NCBI GenBank assembly: GCA_014904985.1
Contig: MU129110.1
Coordinates: 42,707-106,706 of the forward strand
DNA length: 64,000 nt
Direction: 5' to 3'
Origin: Hydnum rufescens UP504
Taxonomy: Eukaryota > Basidiomycota > Agaricomycetes > Cantharellales > Hydnaceae
Positions 10,311-52,743 of the stretch are shown here, piece by piece. The translations under genes and the position numbers were made by a program. Below the pieces are notes generated by a model. The model was not told where the DNA came from and ran no database searches. It saw only the letters and a program-made list of their open reading frames with translations. Position 1 is the stretch's first letter, and the number at the start of each line of letters is the position of its first letter.

Positions 10311-11400
10311 GTGGAAGATAAAAACATCCATCAGAAAATGTGATATCACCACACTTCCAGCCTTTGGACAATCACATGACCAATTACAAAATTAATTACA
10401 GCATGCACAGAAACCAAATTCATTCTATTACTCTGTCAGTTTTGATCAGAAATGCTTGCCCATATAACACTTGGAAAGCTATGATTCATACCTTTCAAAT
10501 GGTACCAAAGACAAGTTGAACAGACCAGAACTGCACTCTCCAGGCTGATTTTACTATCAGAAACCAAATCTTTCAGTATTTAATGAATTTATCTGTCAGT
10601 TTGCATCCAATCTGCTCAGAACCACTGCACCTAGAAAGCTGTTGAAAATCCACATCTAATGGTACTGAGCATGCTGAGAACAGATTAAAACTGCATTCTA
10701 CAGAATGATATGACTATCAAAACCAACACCCACCAGTATTTCATGAATTTCTCCATCAGTTCACATCCAATCTGCTCAGAACCACCACACCCAGAAAGCT
10801 ATTAAAAATCTGCATTGAATGGCACCAATAATACCTATCATGGTGTGGAAGATAAAAACATCCAGTATCAGAAAATGTGAAATCACACCACTTCCAGCAC
10901 TTGGATGATCACATGACCAATTACAAAATTAATTATGGCTATGTGCAGAAACTGAATTTGTTCTATAACTTCATCAGTTTTGATCAGAAATGTACACCCA
11001 TATAATGCTTGGAAAGCTATGATTCACACCTTTCGAATGGTACCAAACACAAGTTGAATGGACCAAAACTGCACTCTCCAGACTGATTTTACTATCAAAA
11101 TCCGAAATTTCCAGTATTTAATGAATTTCTCCATCAGTTCACATCCAATCTACTCAGAATCACTGTGCCTAGAAAGATGTTAAAAAGCTGCATTGAATGG
11201 TACTGATAATGCCAAGAACAGATCAAAACTGCGCTCTAAAGAATGATATTACTGTTAAAATCAACACCCACCAGTATTTTATGAATTTCTCTATCAGTTT
11301 GCATCCAATCCTTTCAAAACTGCCGTGCCTAGAAAGCTATTAAAAATATGCATCTAATGATACCAAAAATGCCTATCATGGATGCAAACTGCTGTCTATG
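10311..11400 (+). repeat. Tandem satellite-like repeat, two ~540-bp copies made of ~180-bp subunits
   Basis: Copy A (about 10311-10848) and copy B (about 10849-11390) begin with GGAAGATAAAAACATCC and share most of their length. Within each, a roughly 180-bp subunit recurs about three times, recognisable by CATCCAATCTGCTCAGAACC, AGAAAGCT and the GAATTTCTCCATCAGTT segment. A third copy lies at 13189-13730. No coding potential was seen. The repeats lie inside the interval that interrupts the MULE. Confidence 0.8.
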
Positions 11401-12189
11401 CATCAAATCCCACCCCATGCACTTGTTCCCATTATTGTTAGTGGTGTGTAAGCCTGGTGGGCACACAGTTTCACTGATGACTTATAAACTCGTGTATATA
11501 CTCATTTCTCTCCTTTATTCCCTTCTTACTCCTTCCCCCCACAACCAGTGTAAGCAGGCTGGTTATTAAACCAATCCAACCACTGTCCACGATGTTGAGC
11601 CGGGGACAAAAGAGGGGATCACAGATCCAATCCAGATGTTCAGGTCCGAGTGGGGGAAGGTCTTTAGAACAGGGAAATTGCAGTGAGCCAACAAAGCCCA
11701 AGCAATTAAGTGAGAAAATGTATGTTTCAGTCAAATTACCACACCCTAAGAATCTCTTCTTGACACCTTAGTCAAAGTGTAGTTAGAATTCGCTTTTTGT
11801 AGTGAGAAATCACCCAGGGACCAGCAGCTGTTCAAGGAGCTTCAAACTGGAAGGAGGGGGAGAACTTGTGATTTTGTGTGCTAGCTGCACCTAATATGCA
11901 ATCCAGACTTCGACTCAATAGAAAGTGGAAAAGTCGGACTTAAGGGACACACAGAGAAAAAGAAATCAAGTTAAAATCTTCAAAACTGATGGAGATATTC
12001 CAATTTCAAGATAAAAGGGGAGATTGACACATTACATGCTATTCCTCCTTCAAACCTGGACAAGTTCCCTTAAGAAAAAGTGGAATAGGTCGCCCTGAGG
12101 GTCCTCTCCATCGGACATAAGAGGGATGGAAGTAATTCGCTATTTTGAATGGTGGAGCAAAGGGGGAGTCATGGGGAGGGAGTTGTCTT
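11401..12189. other. Non-coding repeat debris, LTR-end-like segment
   Basis: The stretch 11440-11590 has a pyrimidine-rich run and ends ...CAACCACTGTCCACGATG, reminiscent of the 3' end of an LTR followed by an internal region. No partner LTR was found. The rest to 12189 has no open frame with meaning. Confidence 0.25.
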
Positions 12190-27800: not shown

Positions 27801-30770
27801 CAATTCCTCTGTCACCTGCATTGCTGCCTGTGGTTGCTCTGCACTATTGGCTAGGTATGACTGTAATAGTACCTCGACCTGGTCATCTTCTGTGCAGGTT
27901 GATTCTGCTGCTGATGGGCTCTTAAGTCTGCTAATAGTAGCAGGGTCACAGGATGTTGTATGGGTACATACCATCTCATGTAGCTGATTTGTACTTTGGT
28001 TATATGTGGCTGCCAAATCCTCAGATTTGCTGATGATGCATACCAAAGAGGTAGGTCCAGTGTCTTGGCTGGCACTCTCTCTTGTGCTTCCCTCCTCTGG
28101 AGGAAGTAGCAAGTACTTTCTGCCACTATTGTCTTCATTGGAAGACTGACCAGGCATACTACCCTCAATGGGGTAGTTCCCTCATTTGTCTGCATGATGA
28201 AATGAGCTAAGGCTGTGGCCTCACGCTTCTGATCGACATTGAGGTTGACTATAAGAGACCCTCCTTGGGTATTCCCTTGTTCATAGAGCCTGAGGGACAT
28301 GCTGTCTGGAAGGCCTACCTCACCATAGCAGATTTCTGCTGCAGCAGCTTTAAGCCAAGGCTGGCCAAGTAAGAGGTCATAATCTGACCCTATTCTGCCA
28401 TTCTTAACAAAGAAGATGTGGTCAAATCTGAGACCCCCAATTCCAATGGGCACTTGCCTGCAGCATCCATGGAGGGTTTCAGTGTTTCCATTCACTCCTT
28501 TGATTCCCCAAGCAGCTCCTGCTGGGTCTAAGGGCAGTCTCAATTCTTCTTGTAGGTTATGAGACATGAGGTTTAGCTCAGAGCCAGTATCAATCATGGC
28601 TCTGATGTGCTCTTTCTCACCTATAGTTATATTGAGTTGGCCTGTACCCATAGCATAAAGGTATTTGTCTAGTACCTGCTTAAGCTCACTGACTTCAGCT
28701 GGCTTTGGTGCTTGTGGATGGGATTGCAAATAAGATGATGCAAGCCACTCTGTAAGTGTGTTCTCACTTTCATCATCTGAGTCATATTCACTATCCCCCC
28801 ATTCATCATTAGCTGCTACTGACCATGCTTCATGTATATTAGCAGGAGCCTGGTCTGGGGACTCCCACTTAGCAGTTTTGGTAAGCCAGTTGATATTCTT
28901 GGATACTTCTCCTGCTGCTCCTAGGATCTTGTGGAGGGGGAGAGTGATAGGTGAGTTCAAGATTTCATCTGTGAGTCCTTCCACATTCAACTGGTGGCAA
29001 AGGTCTGTAGTGAACTCATATTTGGGCATGGCGTGGGGTACATATCCTCTTGGAGTAGCCTTAGTTGTTCCATCTACCATCTCAATATCATCATTGGAGA
29101 TATTGTTGAGTGGTTTCCTGCCCATAGGTGCTGTATTACTTTCTTCAGGTCTCCTAAGTATGGCTGGTGGATTGGGAAAGGAAGCTGGTGGTTTGGCAAA
29201 AGGTAGATTGTTGGATGGAGCTGGTGAGGCTTTAGCCATTGTTGGTTGTGGTCGGGAAGGTAATTGGATGTATGGTTTCCCTTGGGTGGGTGCCTTGGTT
29301 GTGTGAATTCATTCTGCTGCTTCTAGCTGGATGCAAGGCTCAAAGCAGACATTCTTCCTTTCTGGCCATTCTGCCTCCATAACCATCCATTGCCCATTAG
29401 CAGATATTTGTCCAGTTTCATCATGGATTCTTGGTTCAATGACACTGGTAGTGGATGCCCTGCTGAGATGAGGTGGTGCTCCTTTTCCCTTGGGACTGAG
29501 TCTTCTAACAGCTTGTTCCCTAGACTCTCCAGGTTGCAGTGTCAGGTTTGCAAGGTTAGTCCCATCTGCTGTGTAGAGCCTGTCTCCGCTCATGTGGATG
29601 AGACCTTCATCCCTCATTTGATGAGCTGCAGGACAGCTTCGAGTACCTCCTGGGTGACTATTCATCCTGTTTCAGAACCAGCATGGCCAAGGCTCAAAAG
29701 GTCAACTGAGATCTGGCCAGTCACAGTTATAGCTTGTAGGGTCTGGTGGGTTCCCTGCCATTCTGCAAGAAAGATCATGTATTTCTCTAGTAAACTGAGC
29801 TATGGGATCCTCCACAGTGTTGCTAGGTTGGCCAATTGCTGCTGGATTCCCAGAGCTACTTCGGTTAAGCTTAAGGGATAACCTCCGCAATTCTTCTGCT
29901 AAGTCATCTACTCGGCTGTCTGCACATTTACTGGGAGCTGCCTTTGTCCTTGGCAAGCTAGTTTCCCTGCTAGATTTCCACTTTTCCTTCCTCTTTGCAG
30001 ATTGCTTATGGTGAGACCAGCAATGGTCATCTTCAGAGTCAGAATCACTCTCTGAGCTGCTGTCTTCAGACTCATTATTGGTTGAGGAAGAACTATCACT
30101 GTCTGAGTCTTCCTTGTGATGATGATGCTTACTAGTCTTATGGGACTTGGAGTATGACAGTTCATCATCTGAATCAGATTCATCAGACTTTTTCTTGTTA
30201 GCCCCTGTGTGGGTTATCCTCAAGTAGATAGATTCTTTGTCTAGCACTTTAGTGGCCATTCCCTTAACCTTCTCAATGCTTTCAGCACTGGAATGATTTA
30301 GTTGTGGGTTCTCAGCCTTTAATGCATCAAAAACATCCTTCTGGAGATGCTTGGGTAGACCTTTCCAGAAATACAAGTTCTGATCTGCCTCACTCAGAGA
30401 TCCTTTAGGCTTGAGATACTCAACTCAAGTCTTGTATTCTTGGTAGTATTTAGCAAGTTGCTTCTGAGTTGCAATTATTTGTTTGTGCTTAATAAAATGA
30501 ATAATATCTTCACAGGTATACCAAGGTCGGAATTGGTCAGGGTTGTAAAGCTCAGTGAGCTTATGCTTCAACTCATCCCAATTAGAGGCAGACTTGACTT
30601 CCTCAAGTGTAGAGACAAGGTGTCAGATAGACTGCCTACAGTATAGAGGTATCTGGCTGCACTTCTTCTTATCTGTCCATCCAGCTTCACTAGTTCCAAT
30701 TTCATAATCAGCCAAGAACTCTCAAAGGTTCTTGCCAGTGAATCTAGGGGCATCTCTAGAAGAAGGCATA
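27663..30770 (-). pseudogene. Ty3/gypsy gag-protease remnant
   Basis: The minus strand reads as one gag-pro frame from about 30770 to 27851, broken only by TGA at 30722, 30623, 30425, 29702, 29672 and 29309 (lower coordinate of each codon). Gag shows LYFWKGLPKHLQKDVFDALK, an Asp/Ser/Lys-rich linker and the remains of a zinc knuckle (CW..., H, C) around 29683-29640. The protease carries the active site MIDTGSELNLMS and DYDLLLGQPWLKA. Downstream the frame shifts to 28157-27663 (TCTEDDQVEVLLQSYLANSA). No reverse transcriptase, RNase H or integrase follows, so the element is truncated or rearranged. CpG is depleted. Confidence 0.82.
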
Positions 30771-31342
30771 GGCATAGCTGCCCTGACCATCATAGTATCA
30801 TGAGAGCTTGACATGTTTAAGACTGTAGTGGATTTAAGAGCTGCAGGAATAGGTGTGTTTCAGAAGTCTTGGTTTGGAGCACTGATTTCTGAGTCCAGCT
30901 CACTGGGTGTGCTCAGTGGAGAGTTGGATTCACTAATATGAGTGAAAACTTCCAGCTTGGAATCAAGTGTTTGTGTTACTTAGAAAGGAATACCTTCCCC
31001 TGTAAGGACCACCAGAATTTGTAGAAGAGTTTTATGGGCTAGGCTGTATGACCACAGAACTCCAAGGGCAAGCTGTCCAACTCGAGCCTCAGTCTTAGTC
31101 AGTGAGAATGGTGCAAGGTTTCGCAGGACACTCTAAGTACACAAGGTGTAGCTAGAAGCTATAAGAAGGTGGGGGAGGTATGCAGGAACTGCATGCTGCT
31201 GAGGTGGAACAATATTAATACCTTACAACTTGCAAGCTGCAGACTTGGACAAGAAGGCACAATAGAGGTCCTCAGGGAGAAGTGGTATGACTCTGAGTCA
31301 AGCCAAGGAAGGATGAGACAAACTGGAAAGGTAGTGGTCTAG
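30771..31342. other. Probable gypsy 5' leader, non-coding
   Basis: Lies between the LTR candidate and gag. No open frame of note. Confidence 0.35.
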
Positions 31343-31972
31343 TGTTGTAAGAGAGTAATGGCCTGTAGCACTATGTCAATTGTGTCAATATCCATGTATT
31401 ATGTAATCAAAGGTTCCAGCTACTTGGAGTTCAGGTGAGAGGTTGTATCAGGTCACTATGCCTGTATTGGATATGCAGTATTTACCAGATCACTATGCCT
31501 GGGTTTAGATTCAGATTCAGATACAAGTGAGCTTTAACTATAGTGGGCTATTCTACAACTAGTGGGACTACACATGTTCCGTTCACTAGCTGGACCACAC
31601 CAGAGGTACTTAATTGTACTGGCAAGGTGAATTTACAAGGCTTGATACCAGGGAACAGTCAATCACTATGATTCAGAGGAAGCTATCTATGAGACAAACT
31701 TCTACTAGCTAGTCCTAGTGTTGGATTTGTTGTTCTACCATGCCAGATTATAGGGATATTTATACCTTTAAGGACCCATTCTAGAACATTCTATCATCCC
31801 TCCATCTAACTTCCTTACCATTCTAGAGGTTTCTATCACAATCTAATATTCCATCCCTTGTTCTTTCTAGGACCTTCTCCGCTTTTCTGATCATGTGATT
31901 CTTTTCACAGCCGCATTTCCTAGACCCCTAAATGTGTAAATCAGATCCTCTCTTTTACTTTATCCTTCTACA
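31343..31972 (-). mobile_element. Candidate LTR of the gypsy element
   Basis: On the minus strand the segment begins TGTAGAAGGATAAAG, carries GGTATAAATATCC as a TATA box about 200 bp in, and ends CTCTTACAACA, so it has TG...CA ends and a length of 630 bp, placed just upstream of gag. No second LTR or target duplication was found in the window, so the bounds are tentative. Confidence 0.4.
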
Positions 31973-32024
31973 CCATGAATGTCAATTAGGGGACTTGGAT
32001 GATGTACAGCCAGAAAATGGTGTT

Positions 32025-33376
32025 CTGGGAAATTAAAAACCACTATGAAATTTCTTCTAGTATTCATTGGGGGGGATGGATAGTCAAGGGCGGGGGGGAA
32101 GTTGTCACCAGTGGAATAAATTACTCATTTCAATGCTTAATACTGGTATCTCATGTTTCAATTCCTACTGAGAAAGCAGCTGACCACAGTCAGGGGCTTG
32201 CTGGGTTTATTTCAAAACTGACTGGGGGGAACAGCTAATCCTGACCAAGACTTTTTGTGATTGGTGGCAGCGGAAGCATGTTGTGCCATTCATATGGTGG
32301 GCCAATTGTTCCAAAATTAATTTTGACTCCACACCCACTTTTTTTCTCCCTCCCCCCTCTCTTTCACCCCTTCCTCTATCAAATTTCTCAGCACACTCTC
32401 TCAGAATTCTCTTGTGATATTCAAAATTCAGAGTTCCCTCAGGCTTATTTATACTCTTTGGTTTCCATATTCATTTGACTATTCTTCCCTCAGCATGAAT
32501 ACCCTGTACACGTGATTATCACCTGTCATTGCTTGCGGTCTTGGGTCTGTTACAGGGGCCAACTTGGATTGAAAATTGAGGGAATAAGTGAAATAGTTTT
32601 ACATTGCTAGGTTGACCCACCCACATTTGTGCTTCCTGATGAAACCTGGTGTCTGTTGCTCCACATACAGGAAATAAGTCCTAAGCCCAAGGTGGTCTAC
32701 AGAATGCATCATGTAATATTTTCGGAAATTAAGTAAACCCCGGTTATCCATGCCAAAAAACATCACAAGAAACCCACCACAATGACTGGCACATGTTTGG
32801 TAGGCTTTGTTCACAAAATCTGTGCCAGTTGTTGTGGCAGGTTTCTTGTGATGTTTTTTGGCATGGATAACCGGGGTTTACTTAATTTCCGAAAATATTA
32901 CATGATGCATTCTGTAGACCACCTCGGGCTTAGGACTTATTTCCTGTATGTGGAGCAACAGACACCAGGTTTCATCAGGAAGCACAAATGTGGGTGGGTC
33001 AACCTAGCAATGTAAAACTATTTCACTTATTCCCTCAATTTTCAATCCAAGTTGGCCCCTGTAACAGACCCAAGACTGCGAGCAACAACAGACGATAATC
33101 ACATGTACAGGGTATTTGTGCTGAGGGAAGAATAGTCAAATGAATATGGAAACCAAAGACTATAAATAAGCCTGAGGGAACTCTGAATTTTGAATATCGC
33201 GAGAGAATTCTGAGAGAGTGTGCTGAGAAATTTGATAGAGGAAGGGGTGAAAGAGAGGGGGAGGGAGAAAAAAAGTGGGTGTGGAGTCAAAATTAATTTT
33301 GGAACAATCGGCCCGCCATACATTCAACGGAAATCCCCATTGCACCAGACCCTCTTATTAAGAGGGTCTGGTGACG
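32025..33376. mobile_element. MITE copy split by a 1-kb palindrome
   Basis: The left part (to about 32288, with GACCAAGACTTTTTGTGATTGG and GGAAGCATGTTG) and the right end (about 33322-33376, with CCCCATTGCACCAGACCCTC and its hairpin) match successive parts of the intact MITE at 36062-36332. The palindrome at 32290-33322 sits between them. The element abuts the 5' end of the proline iminopeptidase gene. Confidence 0.6.
32290..33322. repeat. 1.03-kb palindrome, ~515-bp arms
   Basis: The left arm starts TATGGTGGGCCAATTGTTCC and the right arm ends GGAACAATCGGCCCGCCATA. The centre is at about 32806. Both arms contain the same 59- to 70-codon open frame (with DNRGLLNFRKYYMMHSVDHL), reading inward on the left (minus) and outward on the right (plus). 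This mirrored frame is a product of the palindrome; its meaning is unknown. Confidence 0.92.
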
Positions 33377-35925: not shown

Positions 35926-36061
35926 ACGCTAGTTGAGCACTGACGGAGGTATGGATGACGAACGTAGCATACCTAGAATCCCTTAGCGGAGTGTCGGCGG
36001 TGGGGGTGAGCGGAAAGTCCCGGGGTGCATTGGTGATGCCAATGGTTGATAGTCGTCATAA

Positions 36062-36332
36062 CCAGACCCTCTTATCAGAGGGTCTGGTGCAATGGGGAGT
36101 TCCGTTGAATTGGGCAACATGCTTCCGAAACTACCTGTTTTGGCCCGGCATTTTGGCTGCTTTTGAGATGAAAATTATATTACTGTTAGTCGAGATATCA
36201 ATGCATTTCAAAATTAGCCAATGTTAACGGCTATCCCCGACCAAGACTTTTTATGATTGGCTGGACCGGAAGCATGTTGCCGAATTCAACAGAACTCCCC
36301 ATTGCACCAGACCCTCTGATAAGAGGGTCTGG
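36062..36332. mobile_element. 271-bp MITE with hairpin-tipped terminal inverted repeats
   Basis: The ends are CCAGACCCTCTTATCAGAGG... and its mirror ending ...AAGAGGGTCTGG. The TIRs run about 65 bp inward, through GCAATGGGGAGTTC and GGCAACATGCTTCCG. Each terminal 27 bp is itself a perfect hairpin. There is no coding capacity. A related copy borders the palindrome at 32-33.4 kb. Confidence 0.88.
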
Positions 36333-36919
36333 TTACGAGACTAAATGGTTGAACTATAGCAGTCTCAGGCTCGCTCGAAGTTTTACCACCTGGATAAATG
36401 GAATCCAGTATAAGACTAGATTTACGATCTGGAGCAGGGACGGGTTGTCGCCAACGGAGGAACGTGAAAGGTGGCCTTACTGGCTCACAAAGGGAGTAAA
36501 TCATCAAGAGAAGCTGACGTCACGTTCTCATTCGTCTGAGTGGGGCTGGAGCACATCATCTTCACGTGACTGATTCGCGCTTCACAGCCGTTGTCTAGCA
36601 TGCCGATTGGGACGTGTTCGGCCAGACTCCATGCACTGAGGCAAAATCACTTTGTTATCTATCTGGAACGAGGGGCCCAAAAGGATCAGATCTAGGGCCT
36701 ACCGAATTTCACATAGACAACCAGATAACAATATTTTGCTCTCTTGGAATCTCTGATGCCAGATCAGGCATGGCACGGGTTCGTGCTTCTCGGACAGGAG
36801 CTAGGCAAATTGACATAACCGGGAAGCTCCTGTTGGCTGGCTTTTGAGCATTCACATTTCACACACACCTGCATACACCCTCGCCCTCTCTCTAGCTCTC
36901 CTCCTGTGATCCTTCAGAG
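36333..36919. other. Upstream region of the GTPase gene
   Basis: Short open frames only. CT-rich tracts at about 36875-36905 directly precede the GTPase ATG, as in many fungal promoters. CpG content is normal. Confidence 0.4.
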
Positions 36920-38222
36920 ATGTGGAAATCTATTCGCAAGCTTTTTAAAGCTGACAGCGATAAGCGCTTCAGGGTCCTCATACTTGGACCGGCGAACGCA
37001 GGAAAGACCACTCTGCTCGAGCGACTAACGGACAGCCCTGCCGGCGCGGCCAAAGTGACCCGCAACGGAAAACGTGTAATTACTGTAGATGTTCGAACCC
37101 AGTAGAGATGCTGGTCTAATTTATCCCCTTATCCAAGGTCAAGGAGGTCCCCAGAGGATACGATCAAGTAAGAGCCATCCTAGCAAAGGTGCATTGCGGT
37201 TGCTCGATGCTTTGACACCATCTAGCGAGGGACCCATAATATCGACGACGAAATCACTTACGCATCAAACCCGGCATTCATTTTCCACGACTCTGGCGGT
37301 TTCGAGGCAGGAGGGGTCGAGGAGCTCGAGGCTGTCTGGAAATTTATTCGAAAGCGCTCGTTGGCTTCGCCTTTGAAGCAGCTGCATGCGATTTGGTGCG
37401 TTCACCCATGCAGTTCACACCTCTTCATATGTCAACTCGTCAATTGTTACAGGCTCTGCATTCCGACAGATAATGACAGGCCCTTGGGATTCTTGCAATC
37501 AGGCCTTTTCTCCGAATCCACAGCATCAGGTATGTCCCATCAGTCGTGGCATTCGACACTATCTGTTACGCACTGGTCCATGTATCTGTTCAGTGCCTGT
37601 TATTGGAATTTTCACCAAGTTGGATGGAAGAAGGACGAAAGTGGAGATTGAGGTTCTGGGCCCTGCTCCCAGCCCATCCGATTTCCGCGATCATGCCCAG
37701 GAGGTGGATCAGAAAGTAGCTGAATTTGTCAATGGACTCGAGACACAATTTCGCAATGAGCAGTACCCACCGGCTGGTTTCATCAGGGTTGGAAGTATGT
37801 ATACTCTATCCAAGCAGCAATTTTGGCACTTAAATCTATGGCCTAAAGACATGGATGAAGTTAGCATGCGGAGCATAGCATTGTGTGACCAACTTCTTCT
37901 AGTCACTATGGATGCTCTTCCCCATGAGACCCAGAGATCATTACTTAGGCTCACAGTTTGGAAAAGAAACCGCCGAATTCATACCATGTTTGTTTTAAAG
38001 CGGTGAGTTTTGGATGTCCAACAGATTGATGGTGGCTCATAATTGTGTTTATCTCATAGTGTCCTTCATGCTGGAACTGAAGGTCCTGTCTCAAGCTCTA
38101 TTAATGAGATGATGGTACAATTTGACTATATTCAGGGAGCATTGTGGCTAGAACCCAACAACCTGTGCAAGATGAAGAATCAGAGTTATGTGCAGACAAG
38201 GGTTTCAGGATTCTTATGGTGA
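36920..38222 (+). CDS. P-loop GTPase, seven exons, basidiomycete-expanded family
   Basis: Exons 36920-37075, 37138-37167, 37226-37395, 37453-37529, 37594-37794, 37849-38002 and 38060-38222 join in frame to 316 residues ending FLW-TGA. The G1 motif is GPANAGKTTLL at about residues 21-31. The second block reads HNIDDEITYASNPAFIFHDS then GGFEAGGVEELEAVWKFIRK (G2/G3 region), and the G4-like motif is IGIFTKLDG (TKLD). These small cytosolic GTPases are numerous in Agaricomycetes and of unknown role. The last exon lacks similarity I can recognise. The stop lies on a GTGAGT donor (TGG TGA GT), so splicing at 38219 instead would bypass the stop and carry the message into the intron array at 38.3-46.3 kb in phase 2. 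CpG is common up to about 37.7 kb and scarce after it. Confidence 0.8.
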
Positions 38223-38339
38223 GTGAATATATCCCTTGCACAACATTTAAGGTACTGATTGTATCATGGGGGATATGACTGTGGCAACTGGTTCTGACAA
38301 TGTGACACATAATGACACATAATTTACTCATTGGATGGT

Positions 38340-41300
38340 GTTAACAACATAGGAGGTATGGCTGCAGGTGTTCACATTTGGTGCACAATCATTGACTTAC
38401 ATGTCTCTTTGTGACACTGTCAATGTAGTTGGTCAGTCTGGATCTTGAATACATGGTCACTGACTGATATAATTTTTGCTGCCATTGGGAACACAGTATG
38501 TGAGTCCAGATCTCCCCCAATTCCATGCATAGTCATTCCCTGATACAGCTTCTGGTGGAATCTACAACACAGGGGGTGAGTTTATATCTCTTAGTTGATA
38601 TGAGGTGGCTGTATATCTTTTGGTGGCATGGATAACATAGCATGTGAGCATGGGTCTCCCACCATCAGATCCACACTGTCACCAGCTGATATCTCCCTTG
38701 GTGGCATCAACCATGTAGGGGGTAAGACTGCACCTGTCATAGTTGTCACTAGCTGATAGAACATTTGGTGGCATGAACATAGGATGTGGGTTAGATTTCC
38801 CCACCATTCAATGTGTTATGGCTGACTTATACATCTTTCCATGGCATAAACAACAAGGCTTGTATGTCCAGACGTCTTGGAATTTAATGCATGGTCACTG
38901 ACTGATAAATATTTTATTGACATTCACACTGTAGTATGTAAGTGTGGATTCAACCTGAGATCCATGGTTGATACATCATTATGTGCAATGGATAAAATAG
39001 GAGGTCAGTGCATATTTCCCAGCTTTCATTGGTGATTGTTTGCCAATACATCATTTGGTGACATGGATAATGTAGTATGTAAGTAGGAATTTCCTATAAG
39101 TTAGCACCTGGTCACTGGTTGATCCATCATCCAATGGCATGGACAATGTAGAAAGTATGCCTGGACCTCTTACAATTAGATGTGGTTGCAGGCTGATATC
39201 TCTCCTCTGTGATGGACAATGTAGGGTGTAAGTTCAGATCCCTCACAATCTGATGCATGGTCCCTCATTGATACATCCTTTGGTGTTGACACCACAGCCT
39301 GTAAGTTTGGATATTTCCCATTTTGTTGAGTGTGGTCACTGGCTAATACATTGTTGGAAAACACTAATAATATAGGATGTAAGTCTGGATCTCCTCCCCC
39401 TTCATGCACAATCATTGGCTGACACATCATTGGATGACATAAATAATCAAGAGTGTGGGCTGCTTTTCAATTTTGTGCTTGATCATTGGCTGATCTATCT
39501 TCTGGTGGCACTGACAACATAGAATGTAAATCTGAATTTCTCACTATTCAATTTGTTGTTGGCTAATATATCTTTTGATGATGTTGACAATGGAGGCTGT
39601 ATGTTTGGTTCTCTTCCAACAAAATGTACAGGTGCAGACTGATATTTCTTGGTCTGAATGGACAATGCAGGCAGTAGGGCTGGATCTCACAATTTAATGC
39701 ATGGTCACTGTCTGATACATTGTTTGTTCCCATTGACAATGTAGCATGTAAGTTCAGATCTCTGCTAAATAAACATGGGATCACTGGCCAATATATTCTT
39801 TGGTGACATTGATAATGTAGCATGTAGGTTCTGCTGCCACTCAGATGCACAATCACTGGCTGATACATTCTGGATGAACTTGACAATATCGGAGGTGAGC
39901 CTGGCTCACTTTTGATTCAGTGTGTGGTGACTTGCTGATCTCACCAATGGCATCAACAATGTAGCTGGTGGGCCCAGGAGTTCTCACAATTTGATGCAGG
40001 ATTGCTGGCTGATTCATCATCTGGTTGCATTGACAATGTAGGAAGTGAGTGACCTCCCCCATCACTTGATAGATAGGTGTTGGCTGATACATTGCCTGGT
40101 GGTATCATAAATGTAGGCTGTGTGTTGGGGTCTCTTGCAATTGAATGTGAGGTCATTGGCTGATACACTGTTTGGTGGCATGGACAATGTAAGATGGTGA
40201 GATTGCATCTACCACCATTCATTGAGTGGCCCTCAGTTGTTATACTTGTGTGGTCTTAACACCATAGTATGTAAGTCCACATCTCAGTCTGATTCATCCA
40301 TAGCATCTGCCTGATTCAGTGTTTGGTGGCTTCTGCAAACAAGAGGGTAGGCCTGGATACTTGAATTCCATATGTCACTGCAAGCTGATGTATCATTTCA
40401 TGGTTTTGACAACCCAGATGGTAAGATGGGATCCCTGAGAATTTGATGCAAGGTGCTGATTGGTTGGTCAACCTGAACACTGTAGGATGTAAGTGCATAT
40501 CACCCTCCTGGTTATGAGTTGATACATCTTTGGTTGGCATTGAAAATGTAGGAAGTAAGTGTCTGAATGTCTGAGAATTTGACACATCATCCCTTGCTGA
40601 TTCATCATTTGGTGGCATTAACAACATAGAGGGTAAGTGTGGATGTCATAGAATTCAATGGATTGTACCTTGTTGACTCATCAGTTGGTGCCATTGACCA
40701 CATAGCATGTAGTAGTGTGCTGGTCATCATGTCATAGAATTCAATGGATTGTCCCTTNNNNNNNNNNNNNNNNNNNNNNNNNGTTGTCCCTTGCTGATTC
40801 AATCATTGGGCACCATGACCACATAGGCATGTAAGGTAGGATGTCATGACTAATTCAATGGGATTGTTCCTTGGCCTCGATTCATCATTGGGTGCCATTG
40901 ACCACCATAGGCTGTAAGTGTAGGATGTCATAAGAATTCAATGGATTGTCCCTGTACTGCATTTCATCATTTGGCTGCCATTGACCTCATAGATTGGTAA
41001 GTGGTGGATGTTCATAGAGATCAATGGATAGCTCCCCTTGCTTGATTCATCATTTGGTGCTATTGACCATAGCATAGTGTAAGTAGTGGATGTTATAGAA
41101 TTCAAGGATTGTCCCTTGCTTGATTCATCATTTGGGTGCCATTGGACCACATAGTTGTTAGTGCTGGGTGTCATAGAATTCAATTGGATTGTTCCTCTTG
41201 CTGATTCATCATTGGGTGCCATTGACCACATAGTTGTAGTGTGGATGTCATAGATCAATGGGAATTGTCCCTTCGTGATTCATCGTTGGGTGCCATTGCC

Positions 41301-44300
41301 ACATAGGGTGTAGGTGTGGATGTCATAGAATTCCAATGGATTGTCCCTTGCTGATTCATCATTGGGGCTGCCTTGACCAATAGGGTCATGTAAGTTTTTG
41401 GATATCCATAGAATTAATGGATTGTCCCTTCCTGATCCATCCTTGGGGCATTGCCACATAGAATTGTAAGTGTGGATGTCATAGATTTCAATGGATTTTC
41501 CTTGCCGATTCATCATTTGGACCATACACAGGCTTGTAAGTGTGATGTCATAAGAATTCAACTGGGCTGTCCCTTGCTGATTCGATCATTTGGGTGCCAA
41601 TACCACATAGTATGTAAGTGTGGATGTCATAAGGATTGCAATGCGTTGTCCCCTTGCTAGTTTATCATTTGGTGCCATTGACCACAATAGTATGTAAGTG
41701 TGGATGTCATAGAATTCGAATGGATTGTCCTGCTGAATTCATCATTGGGTGGCACATTGGACCCATTAGAATGGTAAGTGGTGGATGTATTAGAATTCAA
41801 TGGATTGTCCTTGCTGCATTCAATCATTGGTGCCATCATAATAGGTTGTATGTGTGGATAGTCATAGAACTCAATGGGATTGTTTCTTGCTGATCCATAT
41901 CATTGGTTGCCCATTGATCACATAGGCTGTAAGTGGTGGATGTCATGAGGAATTCAATGGATTGGTCCCTTGCTTGGATCTCATCATATTGGTGCATTGA
42001 CCTCATTAGCTTAGTAAGTGTGGATGTCATAGAATTCAATGGGATTGTCCTTGCTTGATTGACCATTTGGGTGCCATTGACCCACAAAGCATGTTAAGTG
42101 CTGGTGTCATACAATTCAATGGATTGTCCCGCATCACATTGGTGTCATTGACCACATAGCTTGTAAGTGTGATGTCATAGAATTCAATGGATTGTCCCTA
42201 TGCTGATTCATCATTGGGTGCCATTGCCCACATAGGATGTAAGTGTGGATGTCATACAATTCAATGGATTTGTCCCTGCTGATTCTCTTTGGTGCATTGA
42301 CCACCTAGCTGCTAAGTGTGGATGTCAAGAATTTCAATGGATTGGTCCCTTACCTGATTCTCATCTTGGGTGCCATTGCACATCAGCATGTAAGTGTGTG
42401 GATGTCATAAATATCAAATGGACTTGTCCCTTGCCTGATTCACCCTTGGGTGCCATTGACCACCTAGGTTGTAAGTGTGGATGTCAATAGAAATCATATG
42501 GATTGTCTCTTGCTGATTCATCATTGGGGTGCCTATTGACCTTCATAGGTTAGTAAGTGTGGATGTTGTAGAATTCAATGGATTTTGTCCCTTGCTGATT
42601 GATCATTTGGGTGACATTGACCCACACAGGCTGTAAGTGGTGGATGTCATAGAAATTCAATGAGATTGTCCCTGCTATTCATTCATTGGGTGCCATTGAC
42701 CACATAGCTTGATAATTGCTGAGATGTCATAGAATTCCCTGGATTGTCCCTTGCTGATTCTATCATTGGGTGCATTGACACATATGCTGTAAGTGGTGGA
42801 TGCTCATAGGAATTCAACTGGAATTGTCCCGCATTCACATTTGGTGCCAATTGACACACAGCTTGTAAGTGTGGGATGTCATACAGATTCAAATGGTTGT
42901 CCTTGCCCTGATTCATCATTTGGTGGCCATTGGACCACATAGCATGTAAGTGTGGAGATGTCATAGAATTCAAAGGATGGTCCCTTGCTGATTCATCATT
43001 GGGTGCCATAACCAATTAGACTGTAAGTGTGGGGTTCATAGAAATTCAATGGATTGTCACTTGCTGATTCATCATAATGGGTGCCATTTGACCAACATAG
43101 CTGTAGTTCGAGCTCAATAGAATTAATGGATTGTCCCTTGCTGATTCATCATTTGGCTGCCACTGACCATACTACTAGGCTGTATGGGTGCCTGAGTTCT
43201 AGATAATGGACTTGTCCCTTGCTGCATTCACCATTTTGGGCCATTGACCACATAGCCTGTAAGTGTGCGAATGTCAATCAATTCAATGGATTGTCCCTTG
43301 CTGATTCATCAATTGCATTGCCATGGGACCACATAGCATGTAAGTGTGGATGTCATAGGAATTCAATGATTCTCCCTTGCTCGATTCATTCATTGGGGTG
43401 CCATTGACCACATAGCATGTAAGTGTGGGATGCCATAAGAATTCAATGGATTGTATTCTGGCCTGACATCATTGGGTGCCATTACCACATTAGGGTGTAC
43501 GGTGTAGATGTCAAGAAATTCAATGGGCTGTTTCTTGCTTGATCTCACCATTTGGGTGCCATTGACCCCATAGCTTGCTAAGTTCGTGGGATGTTCATAG
43601 AATTCAATGGATTGATTCCCTCACTGATTTCACCAGGTTGGGTGCCATTGACCACATAGCCTGTAAGTGTGCGATGTCATTGAATTCAATTCAGGCATTG
43701 TCCTTGCCTGATTTCATCATTGCGGTGCCATTGACACATGCATGTGGAAGTGATAGGATGTCATATAATTCAATGGATTGTCCCTTGCTGTACTCATATT
43801 GGTGCTGTTGACCACATAGGATGTAGTTATGGATGTCATAGAATTCAATGACTGTCCTGCCTTGATTCCATCATTGGGTGCCATATGACTTTGCATAGGT
43901 TGTAATGTGGATGTCATAGAATTCAATGGATTGTTCCCTTGCTGGATTCATCTTGGTGCCATGACCACATAGCATGTAAGTGGGGATGTTATAGAATTCA
44001 ATGGATTGGTCCCTTGCTGATCATCATTGGGTGCCATTGACCACATAGCGATGTAAGTGTGGATGTCATAGAATGCAATGGATTGTCCTTGCTGATTCAT
44101 CATTGGGATGCCATTGACCATGTAGCTTGTCATGGTGGATGTCTAGAATTCAGTGGATTGTTCCCTTGCCTGATTCACCATTGGGTGCCATTGGACCACA
44201 TAGGGCCCTGTAAGTGTGGATGTCATAGGAGGTCAATGGAATCTGTCCCTGACTGATTCATCATTGGGTGCCATTGGCCACTGCTTGGTAAGTGTGCGAT

Positions 44301-46300
44301 GTCATCGAATTCAATGGATGTCCCTTTCTGATTCACCATTGGGTGCATTGACCCTCATAGCTTGTCAGTTTGGATGTCATAGAATTCAATTGATGTCCCC
44401 TACTGATTCATCCATTGGTTGCATTCACATAGGCTGTAAGTGGTGGATGTCATAGAATTCAATGGATCGTCCCTTGCTGATTCACATTTGGTGCCATTGA
44501 CCCACATAGGCTTGTAGTAGGTGGTGCTCAAGAATTCATGGCATTTCCCTTGCTGATTCGATCCATTGCGCGCAACCATTGACCAGTGACCACATAGCCA
44601 AGTGTTAAGGTGGCGATGTCATAGAAGCTCAATGGATTGTCCCTTTGCTGATTCATCATTGGCGTTGCCATGAAAATGGTTAGGATGCTAAGTGGTCTGA
44701 ATGTCTGAACATTGACACATCATCCCTTGTTGATTCATCATTGGGTGCCATTGACCACATAGCGTTGTTAAGTGTGGATGTCATACAATTTCAATGGATT
44801 CTACCTGCTATTCACATGGGTGCCATGCACCAACATAGCTTGTAAGTGTGGACGTCATAGAATTCAATTGATTGTCCCTTGCTGATTCATCATTTTGGGG
44901 CGCCATTGCACCACATACATGTAAAGTCGTGGATGTCATTACAATTTCAATGGATTTCCCTTGCCTGATTCATCATTGTGCTTTGACCACATAGCCTGTA
45001 GGTGGTGGATGTCAAGAATTCAATGGATTGTCCCTTGCTGATTCATCATTTGGTGCATCCCACTTGACCCACATAGCGATGTAAGGTTGTAGATTGTCAT
45101 AGAATTCAATGGTATTGTCCCTTGCTGATTCACCCTTTGGGCTGCATGACCACATAGCTTGTAAGTGTGGATGCATAGAATTCATGAATTGTCCCTGCTG
45201 ATTTCATCATTGGGTTACCATTGACCACCATAGTTGTAAGGTTTGGGATGTCGCTTAGCATTCAATGGATGTTCCCTTGCTTGATTCATCATTGGGTGCC
45301 AGTTGACCAAGCATCGATGTAAGTGTGGATGTCATACAAATTCAATGGATGTGTGTCCCTTGCTGATTCATCATTTGGTGCCATTGCCCACATAGCATGT
45401 AAGTGTGGATGTCATACAATTCAATGGATTGTCCCTTGCTGATTCATCATTTGGTGCCATTTACCACCTAGCATGTAAGTGTGGATGTCATAGAATTCAA
45501 TGGATTGTCCCTCACTGATTCATCATTTGGTGCCATTGACCACATAGCATGTAAGTGTGGATGTCATAGAATTCAATGGATTGTCCCTTGCTGATTCACC
45601 CTTTGGTGCTATTGACCACATAGGTTGTAAGTGTGGATGTCATAGAATCCAATGAAATTGTCCCTTGCTGATTCATCATTGGGTGCTATTGACCACATAG
45701 GTTGTAAGTGTGGATGTTGTAGCATTCAATGGATTGTCCCTTGCTGATTCATCATTTGGTGACATTGACCACACAGGATGTAAGTGTGGATGTCATAGAA
45801 TTCAATGGATTGTTCTTGCTAATTCATCTTTTGGTGATATTGACAACATAGGTTGTAAGTCCAGATCTCTTAGAATTTGATGCATCTTCTTTACCAATTC
45901 ATCATTTCATTTCATTGACAATGTAGCAAGTGAGTCTGAATGTCTTGCAATTCAATACATTGTCCTTTGCTGACTTCCCTTTTCAATGATAATGCAGCCT
46001 GTAAGTCCAGATGTCTCAGAATTCTATTCACCCCTACTTGATCATGTCCCACTTGGTGGTTCTGTCCTATAGGAGGTCAGTCCACACCTCCCACTCTTGG
46101 ATTTGTGATCTCTGGACAATCTCTTATTTCACTACATCTACAACATAGGATGTATGTCCCCACTCTTACTATTCTGTGTATGATCTTGGCTTATACACAT
46201 CTCACTGACATTCACAATGTTAGCTTGTGAGTTCATAAATTTATACAATGGAATAATATCCTATTTTTTGGCTGCACTCCTTATACTTGGATTCATTACA
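38340..46300 (+). repeat. Tandem array of ~105 intron-like units separated by 3-nt spacers
   Basis: The unit is 73-77 bp. It starts GTAAGT (GTRRGN in diverged copies), has GAATTCAATGGATTGTCC or related sequence, then CTGATTCATCATTTGGTG (CTGAT as branch point about 28-30 nt before the end), and ends GACCACATAG or GACAATGTAG. Next come 3 nt and the next GTAAGT. The 3 nt vary: GAG, TTG, TAT, GGG, CAT, GAT, GAA, CCT, AGT, AAT, GCA and others in the left edge, mostly CAT, GCT, GTT or CTT in the core. Diverged units occupy 38340-40640 and 45860-46300; the core 40640-45860 is homogeneous. Single-base indels litter the core from about 40.8 to 45.3 kb, probably sequence error. The region is nearly free of CpG and not coding in any unspliced frame. 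Confidence 0.95.
40758..40782. other. Assembly gap (25 N)
   Basis: Short N run inside the array, at the left edge of the error-rich part. The true copy number is therefore uncertain. Confidence 0.99.
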
Positions 46301-46621
46301 GGATAATGTAAGTTACATCTAATGTGTGAAAGCCAAATGATTCTGTGTAATTGTGGTCTCATCATTGCTCCCCTGTTATATGGTAAATATTGTCAAGCCT
46401 CACCTCCATCCTTGTCCTTATCTCTCCCAAATTTTATCAGGTGCTCAAATATTCAGGCAGTCAAGGCCTGTGTGCCCTTCCTCAAACTGTTGGTCAGTTT
46501 GGGTTCTTGTTCATTTCCACCCTCCAGCATGTCTAAGCAACCATTCCAGTGTCACCTGCCTATTCCATCACACCCAAATCTTCAATATCTGGTGTTTATT
46601 TGTTGTCAGGGTTGTGACTAA
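46290..46621 (+). CDS. Putative terminal exons downstream of the intron array
   Basis: After the last array-like unit, an acceptor TTACAG is followed by the 6-nt GATAAT and a GTAAGT donor. Then TATCAG precedes a 52-nt exon-like stretch (about 46441-46492) followed by GTCAGT, and TGTCAG precedes GGTTGTGACTAA. If all preceding microexons are 3 nt and the GTPase message enters in phase 2, the 52-nt exon reads CSNIQAVKACVPFLKLL and ends GCD-TAA at 46621. The reading is internally consistent but rests on splice signals only. Confidence 0.3.
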
Positions 46622-48020
46622 TTCTAACTGTGGAAGAGATTGCTGATATTGGTTTGTCAACCCAGTGGTCATCCTTTGGATTCGGAGGGGGAGGAATGCT
46701 GATTCACCTGATGTACCTGAAATAGAGCACACCACTAACTTGGTCCAGGCTCAGATCAGGAGTGACTTGGTGGATTATGGAAATTTTCAAGCACTAGACT
46801 CATATGCTGCTGCAGACAGACTGGCAAGGATCATTGATGACTACACACCCATGTAATATGTGCAGAATACATGTATCAAGTCAAGAGATATCCTCCAATG
46901 TCATTAGTTGTCAATCCTTATCTCTGCTGGGCTGATCCACTTAGAGGTGGAGGTCAGTCTCAATGGATCCAGGTGTGATACCCATGCACCACAGTGTAGG
47001 TCACACAATTTCTGTACCTTAGCAGGGCCTATATCTATGTGTAAACCAAAGGACTTCTTCAAGTCCCACTATAGGAAGTAATCAAGATACAGTACATTGT
47101 GTCAAACTTTTTCAATTTTCAGGGGGTGTGCCAAGTTATCTTGGAAATTTAATGCCTGAGAGTGAGAGGGAAAGCTGTCAGGAGTGAACTGACAGCTGCT
47201 TCTGTCCTTGGAGCTATCCATCAAACTTTCCCCCTACATTGATCTTAACACATAGCACCTGTATCCTCATATGCTCTCACCTCCTCTTTCCCCAGCTCAG
47301 TCATGGGGTTCTCATCATCTCTGCTGTGATTATCAGCATTTTGATTATTCTAATTGCCCTCATATTATCAGGCCTAGGTCAGCAGGCTGTGGGTTGGGTA
47401 ATTGATCATTGGTGACATCTAGGGCTACATCAGCACCCCTTGTCACCTCACCCCCCATGTGAGTCCTTACAGCTACCAATCTAGACTCCCCTTCCTTCTC
47501 TGCCTACTCCCCCTTTACCTCCTCAATTGTCATTGCCAATCCCAATCCTGAACCCCTCACCATCACTACAATCCTTTGACACCTTTGGGGTACCCACACA
47601 TGGGCTGCCTTAGAGGCATAAGTGATGAGTCAGGCACACCTGGAAGTTGGGCATGGGGCATGTGGAGGGATACATGCAGGATGATTAAGGGTTCGTCAGC
47701 AGATGGATCATGGTTGGTAAGCAGCTGTATAAGCTTAGTGATGGTTAGTCAGGCAGGCTGTGGAGGCTGTGCCTTGGAAGGGTCTTGAAGGTTATGGAAG
47801 ATTGTGGAAGGCTCTGGAAGACTGGTAGCTGTGTGGAGGAAATGGTATTTATGGCCCTTTGCAGTTGGATGATCCTCAGTTTTGATCTCTTAGGATTTCC
47901 ACTGTAATAGGGATGTGTATCTCTTCTTTCTCTTTCTGTTCATGGCCTTGATGGCAGTGTCACCCTGACAGAAGATTGAAACTCACCTCCTTGACCCCAC
48001 AAACATCCTTTTCACCCTCT
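46622..48020 (+). mobile_element. Ty3/gypsy LTR-like leader
   Basis: A 64-codon frame (46665-46856) has no recognisable domain. From about 47600 the DNA looks like an LTR and leader. It has CTGTGGAGGCTGTGCCTTGG and TGGAAG-type short repeats, a TATTTATGG box at about 47848, pyrimidine-rich sequence, and then the gag start at 48021. The LTR boundaries are not resolved. Confidence 0.35.
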
Positions 48021-50365: not shown

Positions 50366-51477
50366 TTGTGATATACCCACATATAAACTTGTGACCCCCC
50401 CCTGGTTGATCCCTAGGAAAAAATTGGTACCAGCACAACCCCCTCATGAGTCCCACTTGAAAGATGCATGTAATAATAAGTAATAAACAAATAAACAATC
50501 ATTGTAAGTCAGTACTCTATGTTAACAATTTTGATACATGTATACTATGGCATTGGGTATTGGGTGAGGAAATTGTCCCATGGGGATCCCTTGGGGTGGC
50601 AAATAGAATTATACTATTTATAATAGTAGTGTAAACAGTAGCATAAAATCCTGACTTTATCATGGCTGCAAATCTCCTTAGAATACTGTAGTTGCTCTAA
50701 GTCTAACAAAGTGTCACGTCACAACTGGGAAAAAGTCGCTAGAACCTATAGCGACCCCATCACATCTAGCCAGCTCTAGGATGTCACATGACTGAACAAT
50801 TGGCCAGGTGCCTGATTATTAGTTCCAGGGTAACAGAAACCAAATTACCAGGCATGTTTTGAGTGAGAAAAGGAGGTGAAAGCAGGTAAGGAATGAAGAA
50901 ACAAAAGAATAAGGAGGGGGAGAAGAATCAGGCTGGTTCGAACTGCTGTATGACCTGTGACCACAAAGAACTGAGAATGCATCCATGGCTGTGACCAAAT
51001 GTCCCCTTCTTCCATTGGGTTGCGGACGATATTAATGATGAAACACCTTGCACTGCAGGCTGCAAAGAAGAAAGGTGGCAGATTTTGGCAATGGTGGGAT
51101 GGGGATTAATAGTTTCACTTGATTATCTTGGTTTTTATATACAAGTTTAGCTTCATACAAGTGAGGCACCACAGTGGTATAAACCTCCTGAAAAAAAATT
51201 CAGGAAAATATATTTCAAAGGGTGCCTTTTCATAGTTCGTCGGGGTCTGTGACGTGTGGGGGGTTCAGTTCACAAGTCCCTGTGACCTGTGACCAACCCT
51301 ATGGTCGAAATAGGACAGTACAGTATGTGCACATAATCTGGGTATTAATTTGGAAGATTGCAGAACAATGCTAACAACCAAAACTAGCTACGAGAATATC
51401 TAAAAAAGAAGGTTCTATGCATTCTCAAGGCGAGCTCAGAACGGCAAACCAATTTCTGTGGGCGCAGCAATCCAGTA
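50366..51477. other. Upstream region shared in part with the 17.6-kb gene
   Basis: GGGTGGCAAATAGAATTAT at about 50593-50611 recurs at 17550-17568, in both cases some way upstream of the same Ser-rich leader. Otherwise there is no gene. Confidence 0.45.
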
Positions 51478-52743
51478 TTGCGGAAGCAAATCGACCAACT
51501 TCAAGTCTCCTCAACCATCTCAACTTACGCAATGGCTACTAACCCTGCCAGTTCCAGGGGGAGTAGCTTTGCTTCCTCAAGCTCGCTAGCAACATCTGCA
51601 ATGGCTGCCACCCCTGCTGTTTCAAGTGGGGGGGGTAGTCTTGCTTCATCAATTTCAAACCCAATTTGCGAGTTGGAACCTGGCTCTGTCACAAATGGAG
51701 AGGGTGCACTCACTTCCTCAAGCTCACAGATCGATGATTTGGACTCTAGCCCCACTGTCTACAGATTTCTACTATGCAACCATGTCGAAGTGAGTCCGCA
51801 ACACAACGGCTCATACATTCTCTGTCGTTGCATCAGCTCTGGGCGTACCATCCTTCCATTCCTCAAAGCGATCTGCCATGGTAAAAGATCATGGCAGGTC
51901 CGCCATACCGGCATCCGTATCGCCCAGCGAATCGCTGCTATGATGGGATGCGCAGTTCTTCCCCATCTGCGAAACCTCGTCGAGGTGATCGCACATGACG
52001 TGTCCTTACGAAGCTACGATGGACCTGGCCATGCGATGGACCACCATTTGCGCGTTCTCTGCATTCACTCTGAGGATTCCATCCTTCTGTTCATCAAAGC
52101 AGTCTGTCGCAGCAAGAAATCATGGCAGGCCCGCCATACCAGCATCCGTATCGCCCAGCGAATCGCTGCTATGATGGGATGCGCAGTTCTCCCTCATCTG
52201 CGAAACCTCGTCGAGGTGATCGCACATGACATGTCCTTACGAAGCTATGATGGACCTGGCCATGCGATGGACCACCATTTGCGCGTTCTCTGCATTCACT
52301 CTGAGGATTCCATCCTTCTGTTCATCAAAGCAGTCTGTCGCAGCAAGAAATCATGGCAGGCCCACCATACCGGCATCCGTATCGCCCAGCGAATCGCTGC
52401 TATGATGGGATGCGCAGTTCTCCCTCATCTGCGAAACCTCGTCGAGGCGATCACACATGACATGTCCTTATGGGGCTGCAATGGGCCTGGCCATGCGATG
52501 GACCACCGCTCGCATGTTCTCTGTCACTGTATTAGCTCTGGGGATTCCATCCTTCTGTTCATCAAAGCAGTCTGCCACAGCAAAAAATCATGGCATGCCA
52601 TACCGGCATCCGTATCATCCAGCGATTTGTCACCACGATGGGATGCACAGTTCTCCCTCATTTATAACTTATTGAAGGCTTACACTATGTCTTACTACCT
52701 TGGTGGAGGCCATGCTACAACTAAGTCCTTTGCTCAAGCTTAG
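51478..52743 (+). CDS. Chimera: Ser-rich leader fused to triplicated SF3B1 HEAT segment
   Basis: The frame is 421 codons; the first ATG is at 51532, and the frame is open upstream of it. Residues ~1-85 are a Ser/Thr/Ala-rich leader ([19 protein letters not shown]) shared with the gene at 17.6 kb. From residue 124, 201 and 278 come three 77-residue repeats (231 bp), each with [32 protein letters not shown] and a linker with [12 protein letters not shown] fourth begins at 355 but is frameshifted after KKSWHA. The core matches the HEAT repeats of SF3B1/Prp10, the U2 snRNP protein that clamps the intron branch helix; RHTGIK in human SF3B1 holds hotspot residues H662 and K666, and here the Lys position is Arg. 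A full SF3B1 is about 1,200-1,300 residues, so this is a captured fragment, not the host gene. No stop lies in the three repeats. Confidence 0.85.

Follow-up and report, generated by a model that had tools for sequence, protein, structure and literature searches.

The hedgehog mushroom Hydnum rufescens, a basidiomycete in the order Cantharellales, is ectomycorrhizal (PMC7550596). In a stretch of 64,000 nucleotides (nt) from the genome of strain UP504 (contig MU129110.1, positions 42,707 to 106,706 of the forward strand; referred to as the window and numbered from its first letter), a gene for a GTPase-like protein runs directly into a tandem array of short introns, which are separated from one another by exons of only 3 nt, each of which would contribute a single codon to the tail of the protein. 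A first-pass annotation of the window had described about 105 tandem intron-like units with 3-nt microexons as a single array at 38340..46300. The array is real and extends over 38219-46440, where about 104 introns were found (a second parser returns 105, one of which is an artefactual split), but it is not alone and is one member of a multi-copy family.

The upstream part of the gene (36920..38218, on the + strand, as are all features of the gene) encodes a P-loop GTPase domain in eight exons, with limits that follow the public model BS47DRAFT_1333835 (P0001), and it translates without a stop. Exons 1-4 (36920-37075, 37138-37167, 37226-37395 and 37453-37529) are followed by exons 5-8 (37594-37794, 37849-38002, 38060-38082 and 38136-38218), the last of which ends in phase 0 (...GFRILM, followed by GTGAGT). 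The first intron of the array (38219..38352, 134 nt) ends in TAG before the first single-codon exon, GAG, a junction that is present in 15 of 15 aligned loci. The left edge of the array (38353..40554) comprises 31 single-codon exons between diverged introns; in the paralogues it spells ELYGHEDLYEYKGPDNNAEHHELEAMYRMDE or near variants, and the window copy has damaged junctions at units 8 and 22. It leads into the middle (40555..45854), which is made up of near-identical introns (73 nt in clean copies) and hypervariable single-codon exons. The right edge (45855..46301) consists of the final diverged units, whose single-codon exons read Q-P-E-D-L after a V codon at 45852-45854.

The last small exon of the array holds two codons (46302..46307, GATAAT, Asp-Asn). 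This 6-nt exon appears in 15 of 15 parses made with generic splice-site weights, closed the chain in the three copies inspected and, after correction, is the terminal exon in 13 of the 14 cleaner arrays defined below; in the C6 copy the generic parse gives TATAAT. The final intron of the array (46308..46440, 133 nt), which the second parser splits artefactually at 46379/46383, is followed by downstream exon 1 (46441..46492, phase 0, VLKYSGSQGLCALPQTV), whose boundary is the least certain of the gene, and by a C-terminal exon that ends in the stop codon TAA (46666..46856, VVILWIRRGRNADSPDVPEIEHTTNLVQAQIRSDLVDYGNFQALDSYAAADRLARIIDDYTPM).

A single genome was analysed, which comprises 63.2 Mb in 539 contigs, and the family counts obtained from genome searches are lower bounds. 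The unit consensus has at least 938 matches in the genome and a spaced double-junction pattern has 951, with none for the reversed control. Seventeen arrays were read in all, the window copy (C202) and 16 further gene-plus-array copies; all 17 lie downstream of the same GTPase-like gene and on the same strand, and the matches read make up the smaller part of the 951. The C-terminal exon has at least 47 genome matches, 46 of them without an internal stop, and is found downstream of 16 of the 17 arrays, the sequence behind the C164 array being N; C164 was left out of the analysis of downstream exons. Downstream matches number at least 40, with identities from 100% to 76%. In the C171a copy the C-terminal exon lies farther downstream than both an N gap and a second copy of downstream exon 1. 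On that genome contig (C171, ~41799-44788) the two copies of downstream exon 1 are split by the N gap behind one array, which suggests a local duplication or a mis-join.

The best protein-search match to the upstream GTPase-like region is a 317-residue hypothetical protein of H. rufescens UP504. A Pfam scan confined to the GTPase part places Arf just above the cut-off and MMR_HSR1 just below it and contains no NACHT or WD domain. The fold predicted for the GTPase part, in a model without the tail, is a G domain, and the query-normalised TM-scores of 0.29-0.46 among the 50 matches listed (G-alpha, IRG, GIMAP2, Era, EngB and others) reflect a generic G-domain likeness. The ratio of nonsynonymous to synonymous substitution rates (dN/dS) in GTPase exons 2-8 is 0.37 over 78 paralogue pairs. 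Short repeats (PDEQVPDEQVPDTG and the like) also stand in runs at the N-terminus of several Hydnum GTPase paralogues (P0012, P0014, P0026, P0027, P0028 and P0036), so that the GTPase family has undergone a second expansion of repeats.

The exon structure of the arrays was read with two parsers. The first relied on generic weights for fungal donors, acceptors and branch sites, was not trained on the array, and had flat priors on exon length (0-40 nt) and intron length (40-200 nt); because of this flat exon-length prior and the lack of array training, the 3-nt spacing that it recovers is not imposed by the method. The second favours 3-nt exons and was used for corrected exon counts and for stop counts. 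It cuts the final intron in two in 13 of the 14 cleaner arrays, which creates one false CTG triplet in each, and removal of these 13 triplets leaves 992 triplets and 1,008 exons (1,005 and 1,021 uncorrected). The false triplets are still included in the 534 edge codons of the third-base tabulation used below, the 471 middle codons being unaffected, and no more than two introns per array among the 1,020 scanned for branch sites stem from the final-intron split.

The spacing of 3 nt seen in the first-pass annotation was recovered by the generic parser in 88-95% of the exons of 14 copies, referred to here as the cleaner arrays: C267 (84/88), C241 (52/55), C101 (67/74), C86 (97/102), C35 (56/60), C164 (89/99), C147 (58/63), C127 (86/92), C87 (35/37), C6 (54/58), C169 (65/69), C32 (36/41, the lowest), C171a (56/62) and C171b (52/57). 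The corrected second parse of these arrays, which hold 43-105 introns each, gives 992 exons of 3 nt among 1,008, with 13 of 6 nt and three of 2 nt, and the introns show every remainder when their lengths are divided by three. Two distant copies have the same anatomy, with 3-nt exons making up 59 of 61 in C9 and 71 of 71 in C2, the latter only partly read. Random occurrence was rejected, as 56 of 60 dinucleotide shuffles (20 each of C241, C267 and C87) contained no intron chain at all, and the four that did gave 3-nt exons in three of 101 cases.

In the window copy, 3-nt exons account for 61 of 92 exons with the generic parser and for 79 of 104 with the second. Its region ~40740-45330 is interrupted by a gap of N at 40758-40782 and has, in 500-base bins, 5.5-11 indels for each unit versus 0.73 in the units of other copies (those within 14 edits of the consensus), with an ordinary substitution load; it is most likely low-quality assembly sequence. 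The unit count of the window copy and its exons of other lengths are therefore unreliable, and this copy was excluded from unit statistics on account of its indel-noisy middle. The matches listed at C2:726096-728328 likewise show some indels relative to their neighbours.

The units carry the signals of U2-type GT-AG introns, namely donor, acceptor and branch motif. A branch-like YTRAY motif is present in 913 of the 1,020 parsed introns of 55-95 nt in the cleaner arrays; its A lies 29 nt from the intron end in 633 introns, in agreement with the branch-point-like site placed at about 28-30 nt before YAG in the first pass, and a second YTRAY lies 8 nt from the end 475 times. Donors other than GT occur seven times in the cleaner arrays and five of these are GC. 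The acceptors AAG or GAG, rather than YAG, recur at left-edge units 16, 18, 26 and 28 in most paralogues, and these rare acceptors appear stable in the array.

Because all 15 aligned loci share the order of their left-edge units, individual junctions can be followed between paralogues. Across 31 junctions in 14 loci (the window copy left out), the mean pairwise difference is 0.000 at the donor GT, 0.005 at the acceptor AG and 0.030 at the fifth intron base (G5), versus 0.116 in the intron bodies (1,844 sites). The intron-body difference rises to 0.203 among five loci that are more distant, and there GT and AG remain without any difference. Only two of 211 indels relative to C241 fall in the AG-NNN-GT heptamers, where ~21 would be expected (the heptamers make up 217 of 2,223 sites). 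One left-edge junction of C164 is spanned by a deletion. Earlier it had been noticed that the left-edge units of the window keep GT and AG despite their divergence, and an excess of splice-site conservation was anticipated once diverged units were aligned; both extend to the paralogues. Within the loci compared, these patterns show splice signals and exon length to be under purifying selection and, as evidence from sequence evolution, they support the proposal that selection maintains, or once maintained, the units as introns between single-codon exons.

These observations bear directly on the simplest account of the array, a neutral minisatellite that grew from one intron and retains its splice signals and spacing by common descent only. 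Such an origin fits the window, where the array has a period of 76 and its central units are near-identical, but it does not fit splice sites that stay unchanged between distant loci whose intron bodies have diverged, nor the shortage of indels in the heptamers, and a neutral repeat leaves no room for the codon-specific patterns described below. Provided that the left edges are correctly aligned, the paralogue comparison refutes the neutral minisatellite, to which we give practically no credence.

The triplets behave as codons in a continuous reading frame. The absence of stops among the 3-nt exons, reported by the first-pass annotation for roughly 30 left-edge units, holds for all 992 triplets of the cleaner copies (the noisy window copy holds one stop triplet in the second parse). 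An estimate that treats edge codons as independent (25 stops expected, 0 seen) is inflated by their shared descent and is given no weight. When joined, the triplets open with ELYGHEDLYEYKGPDNNAEHHELEAMYRMDE or relatives (ELYGHE..YEY..) and close with VQPEDLDN or relatives, and the opening is still recognisable in the most diverged copies (C9, ELYGRENDYKY...LENVYGRDE; C2, ELYGCEKDYEY...). Upstream of the array, the phase-0 frame of exon 8 contains no stop in 14 loci, versus 4 and 27 in the other frames, and downstream, the continuing frame of the last exon contains none in eight loci, versus 14 and 58. Both exons after the array carry phase 0 through to the stop codon, and in C6 and C32 the last exon shifts in length by multiples of three with its stop codon at the same end. 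Triplet length and continuity of frame with the flanking exons are as expected of translated single-codon exons.

Among nine public gene models inspected, seven share the ...GF(R/W)ILM frame, which reaches the array in phase 0. A phase-2 reading of the triplets, based on a gene-model exon ending ...SGFLM, was dropped, since these seven models end exon 8 in phase 0, the phase-2 frame meets four stops in exon 8 (14 loci) versus none, and only phase 0 enters the stop-free frame of the last exon. Conceptual products could be assembled for eight genes, with 51-113 introns for 423-483 residues. To our knowledge, such a ratio of introns to residues lies far outside ordinary fungal gene structure. C6, C32, C169 and C202 were set aside for this purpose, the first exon could not be lifted over in C6 and C32, the C169 lift-over was off by one base, and no complete product came from C101, C164 or C171a (a 2-nt exon or an unlifted downstream part).

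Continuity of frame is also a difficulty for a second account, in which the array is transcribed and then wholly removed, either as one large intron or by stepwise recursive splicing, leaving the triplets as mere by-products. A 3' splice site, 3 nt and a 5' splice site in a row presumably resemble recursive splice sites, and no protein with the tail has been found, both of which favour removal. It would not be expected to leave an amino-acid signature in the triplets, no stops and conserved peptide ends, nor exons of which 1,005 in 1,008 are multiples of three in a frame that agrees with both flanks, and we regard it as unlikely.

The middle of the array is hypervariable in its codons and nearly uniform in its introns. 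Among the 380 near-consensus units (of 467; those of exactly 73 nt, with per-position means excluding C87 and C32, which have fewer than eight units), diversity within arrays is 0.57, 0.68 and 0.24 at codon positions 1, 2 and 3, versus ~0.08 per intron site. Even pairs of units with identical introns within the same array differ in their codon in 81% of 59 cases. In 105 pairs both flanking introns, together 146 nt, match to within 3 edits, and ~20% of these pairs have the same codon, against an all-pairs baseline of 13.7% (8,912 unit pairs). A shared ancestral peptide in the middle was sought and rejected, as there is no similarity above shuffles between loci (66 pairs, mean z -0.04).

Near-identical introns between differing codons are what would be seen had introns spread alone, that is, had a mobile introner-like intron been inserted repeatedly between the codons of a pre-existing ordinary exon. 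Against this stand the number of units, which varies from 43 to 105 introns among the cleaner copies, and the middle peptides of different loci, which retain no similarity above shuffles; we also know of no precedent for same-strand intron insertion at dozens of successive codons. Repeated insertion is considered very improbable.

Evidence that the variation is seen by selection at the level of the protein comes from the third base, which is mostly T in the 471 middle codons. In fourfold boxes, whose third base is silent, nine of 243 codons depart from T; in split boxes 73 of 228 do so, almost always with a change of amino acid (CAA, GAA, TGG). The contrast has a Fisher value of 3e-17; as the units are related by descent, more weight is placed on permutation of third bases within arrays, which yields a mean of 37.2 fourfold departures and in none of 5,000 trials a number as low as nine. 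At the left edge, three of 100 codon differences to C241 over seven loci are synonymous, with none of 30 in C35, C171b and C169 (in this comparison the unit register of C32 and C2 has possibly slipped). Ten of the 31 edge codons are invariant in all loci that have them (13 or 14 loci), and edge units 7, 8, 13, 22, 25 and 29 lie above the 97th percentile of intron triplets. The third-position contrast and the left-edge synonymous counts together indicate amino-acid-level selection on the triplets.

The same counts bear on the idea that the codon is targeted by a mutator, its variability being mutational and not selected. In its favour, the codon is almost uncoupled from its flanking intron, even in near-identical units, to a degree that selection by itself would not easily produce. 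A mutator should also produce silent third-position changes, yet these are rare (the nine of 243 above), and edge codons 1-3, 9 and 11 show no variation across the 14 loci despite the same kind of context; a mutator as the sole cause is improbable.

Base composition may account for part of the third-position signal. C is absent from the third position of all 471 middle codons and occurs there once at the edges, and the observed/expected ratio of CpG is 0.02 in the arrays and 0.70-0.99 in the GTPase exons. CpG loss before GT may explain the missing NNC codons and would restrict the silent changes open to NNT codons. CpG dinucleotides number 20 in 2,010 inside codons and 30 in 73,895 in introns, a codon level that is consistent with arginine codons being kept or renewed. 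Along the window, the ratio is 0.08-0.14 in the 4-kb bins 8001-12000, 28001-32000 and 40001-48000 and 0.21-0.89 in the remaining bins, which suggests methylation-driven decay in repeats.

Taken together, the array is best explained as a translated hypervariable segment under diversifying selection, in which each exon supplies one residue and homogenised introns serve as frame-safe recombination spacers, a reading that we hold to be probable from the comparisons above. Several findings weigh against it. The third-position bias could in part reflect splice-site context or CpG loss, and its split-box departures are concentrated, 48 of 73 coming from C164 and C127; without these two copies, non-T third bases number 3 of 191 in fourfold boxes versus 25 of 159 in split boxes, and C86, C169 and C32 have no third-base departures at all. 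Left-edge codons are on average only slightly more variable than introns, and in distant pairs the number of identical left-edge codons matches that predicted from intron divergence (18 versus 17.2 in C6, 16 versus 15.3 in C9), so that the edge as a whole is not hypervariable and the middle is. The uncoupling of codon and intron is extreme for selection alone, and homogenisation restricted to introns, or a mutator, may contribute to it.

The integrity of individual copies and the flanking exons provide further contrary points. C101 and C164 contain 2-nt exons, and among the left units one acceptor in C164 and one in C127 lack AG. Although six of the eight conceptual products are open throughout, those of C241 and C171b meet a stop in downstream exon 1. 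The seven public models that share the phase-0 frame then append unrelated short tails or stop, P0006 takes the end of exon 8 in another frame, P0016 ends earlier and P0013 reads through the small intron before exon 8. Nor was the joined tail found by a database search: the four proteins retrieved for the spliced C267 tail carry no annotated tail and cover 15% of the query region apiece, as expected of the exon upstream of the array. Finally, in comparisons of close copies dN/dS is 0.88 in the C-terminal exon and 1.61 in downstream exon 1 (24 pairs), which points to weak purifying selection there, and the differences at the three codon positions are flat both in exon 8 (0.143, 0.114 and 0.134) and in the last exon (0.044, 0.055 and 0.058).

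If the array is a translated segment, each gene would specify a GTPase-like domain followed by a tail of ~43-105 residues (in the cleaner copies), nearly every one of which would come from its own 3-nt exon. Introns of ~73 nt would be removed one by one, perhaps in order, each step adding a single codon in phase 0, to give a conserved opening (~31 residues), a middle peculiar to each copy (~7-66 residues), the sequence VQPEDLDN and the product of two ordinary exons. The middle residues would be under strong diversifying selection while concerted evolution homogenises the introns, and unequal crossing-over, deletion or exon skipping would add, remove or reorder residues with the frame intact, because each exon is one phase-0 codon and the repeated DNA is nearly all intronic. 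We infer that the arrays are spliced and give rise to protein, that recombination changes the number of units, and that the tail has a role in recognition, for example of non-self. A more specific proposal, which we advance tentatively and rate at a little under even chances, is that the tail is a hypervariable recognition peptide stored as single-codon cassettes, which recombination and alternative splicing edit residue by residue without frameshift. On this proposal the cassette store would be a splicing-dependent generator of diversity unlike known receptor, effector and allorecognition systems.

The nearest biological analogy found is with the HNWD/NWD non-self recognition genes of Podospora anserina, in which new variants arise through instability of the repeats (Chevanne et al. 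2010, PMC2873952). They too form a fungal family that combines a nucleotide-binding domain with a repeat array variable in unit number, whose units are homogenised by concerted evolution with a few codons strongly diversified; the repeat backbone in HNWD is a WD40 protein domain, whereas in Hydnum it is an intron absent from the protein, with one residue per unit. The Hydnum arrays likewise combine concerted evolution of units with apparent diversifying selection at few codons. The Hydnum family is not known to confer an incompatibility phenotype and has a G domain in place of NACHT and WD, and the analogy is not a claim of membership in the HNWD family.

Several other systems share individual features with the arrays. 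The micro-exon genes of schistosomes contain many very short exons divisible by three, which permit frame-neutral skipping and protein variation; their exons are longer and fewer, and they are not known to have near-identical tandem intron units. Transcription activator-like (TAL) effector repeats and PRDM9 zinc fingers are near-identical repeats with hypervariable specificity codons, but their repeat backbone is translated, whereas that of Hydnum is intronic. Microexons are numerous in the bicycle genes of gall aphids, and introner-like elements are dispersed among many genes. Bicycle genes resemble the Hydnum genes in being a rapidly evolving family with microexons (PMC9168663), but they are not known to have tandem identical introns or single-codon exons. 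Fungal introner-like elements are, like the array units, near-identical introns multiplied within a genome (PMC4457414); the Hydnum introns, unlike introners, form tandem arrays within a single gene family, each separated from the next by one codon. Mouse Ncam shows that splicing can include an exon of 3 nt (PMC8042270), and filamentous fungi can use a microexon, as in Xlr2 of Trichoderma (PMC11121469); these are isolated single exons, whereas Hydnum has dozens in a row. No description of arrays of single-codon exons was found in searches of the open-licence literature on microexons, introners, tandem intron repeats, this species and repeat-based recognition in fungi.

Other repeats in the window lie outside the array gene. 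Upstream of the GTPase gene, an inverted repeat at 36056-36338 (72-nt arms, 96% complementary, 139 nt apart) resembles a small terminal-inverted-repeat element. A palindrome at 32400-33214 has arms of at least 402 nt that are 95% complementary and 11 nt apart, with similar 92-residue open frames on both strands; one arm starts at the edge of the searched region, and the palindrome may therefore be longer. At 51388-52743, a stop-to-stop open frame of 451 residues contains 3.3 copies of a 231-nt tandem repeat.

The public gene models inspected miss tails of this kind. Should the arrays be spliced as predicted, they would test how the spliceosome handles dozens of consecutive 3-nt exons, and the family raises the question of what at least 40 hypervariable GTPase-linked peptides recognise in an ectomycorrhizal fungus. 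If the proposed mechanism is true, introns would have a definite function as spacers, through which recombination could act on a hypervariable coding region one residue at a time, much as though the fungus had a kit for altering part of a protein codon by codon.

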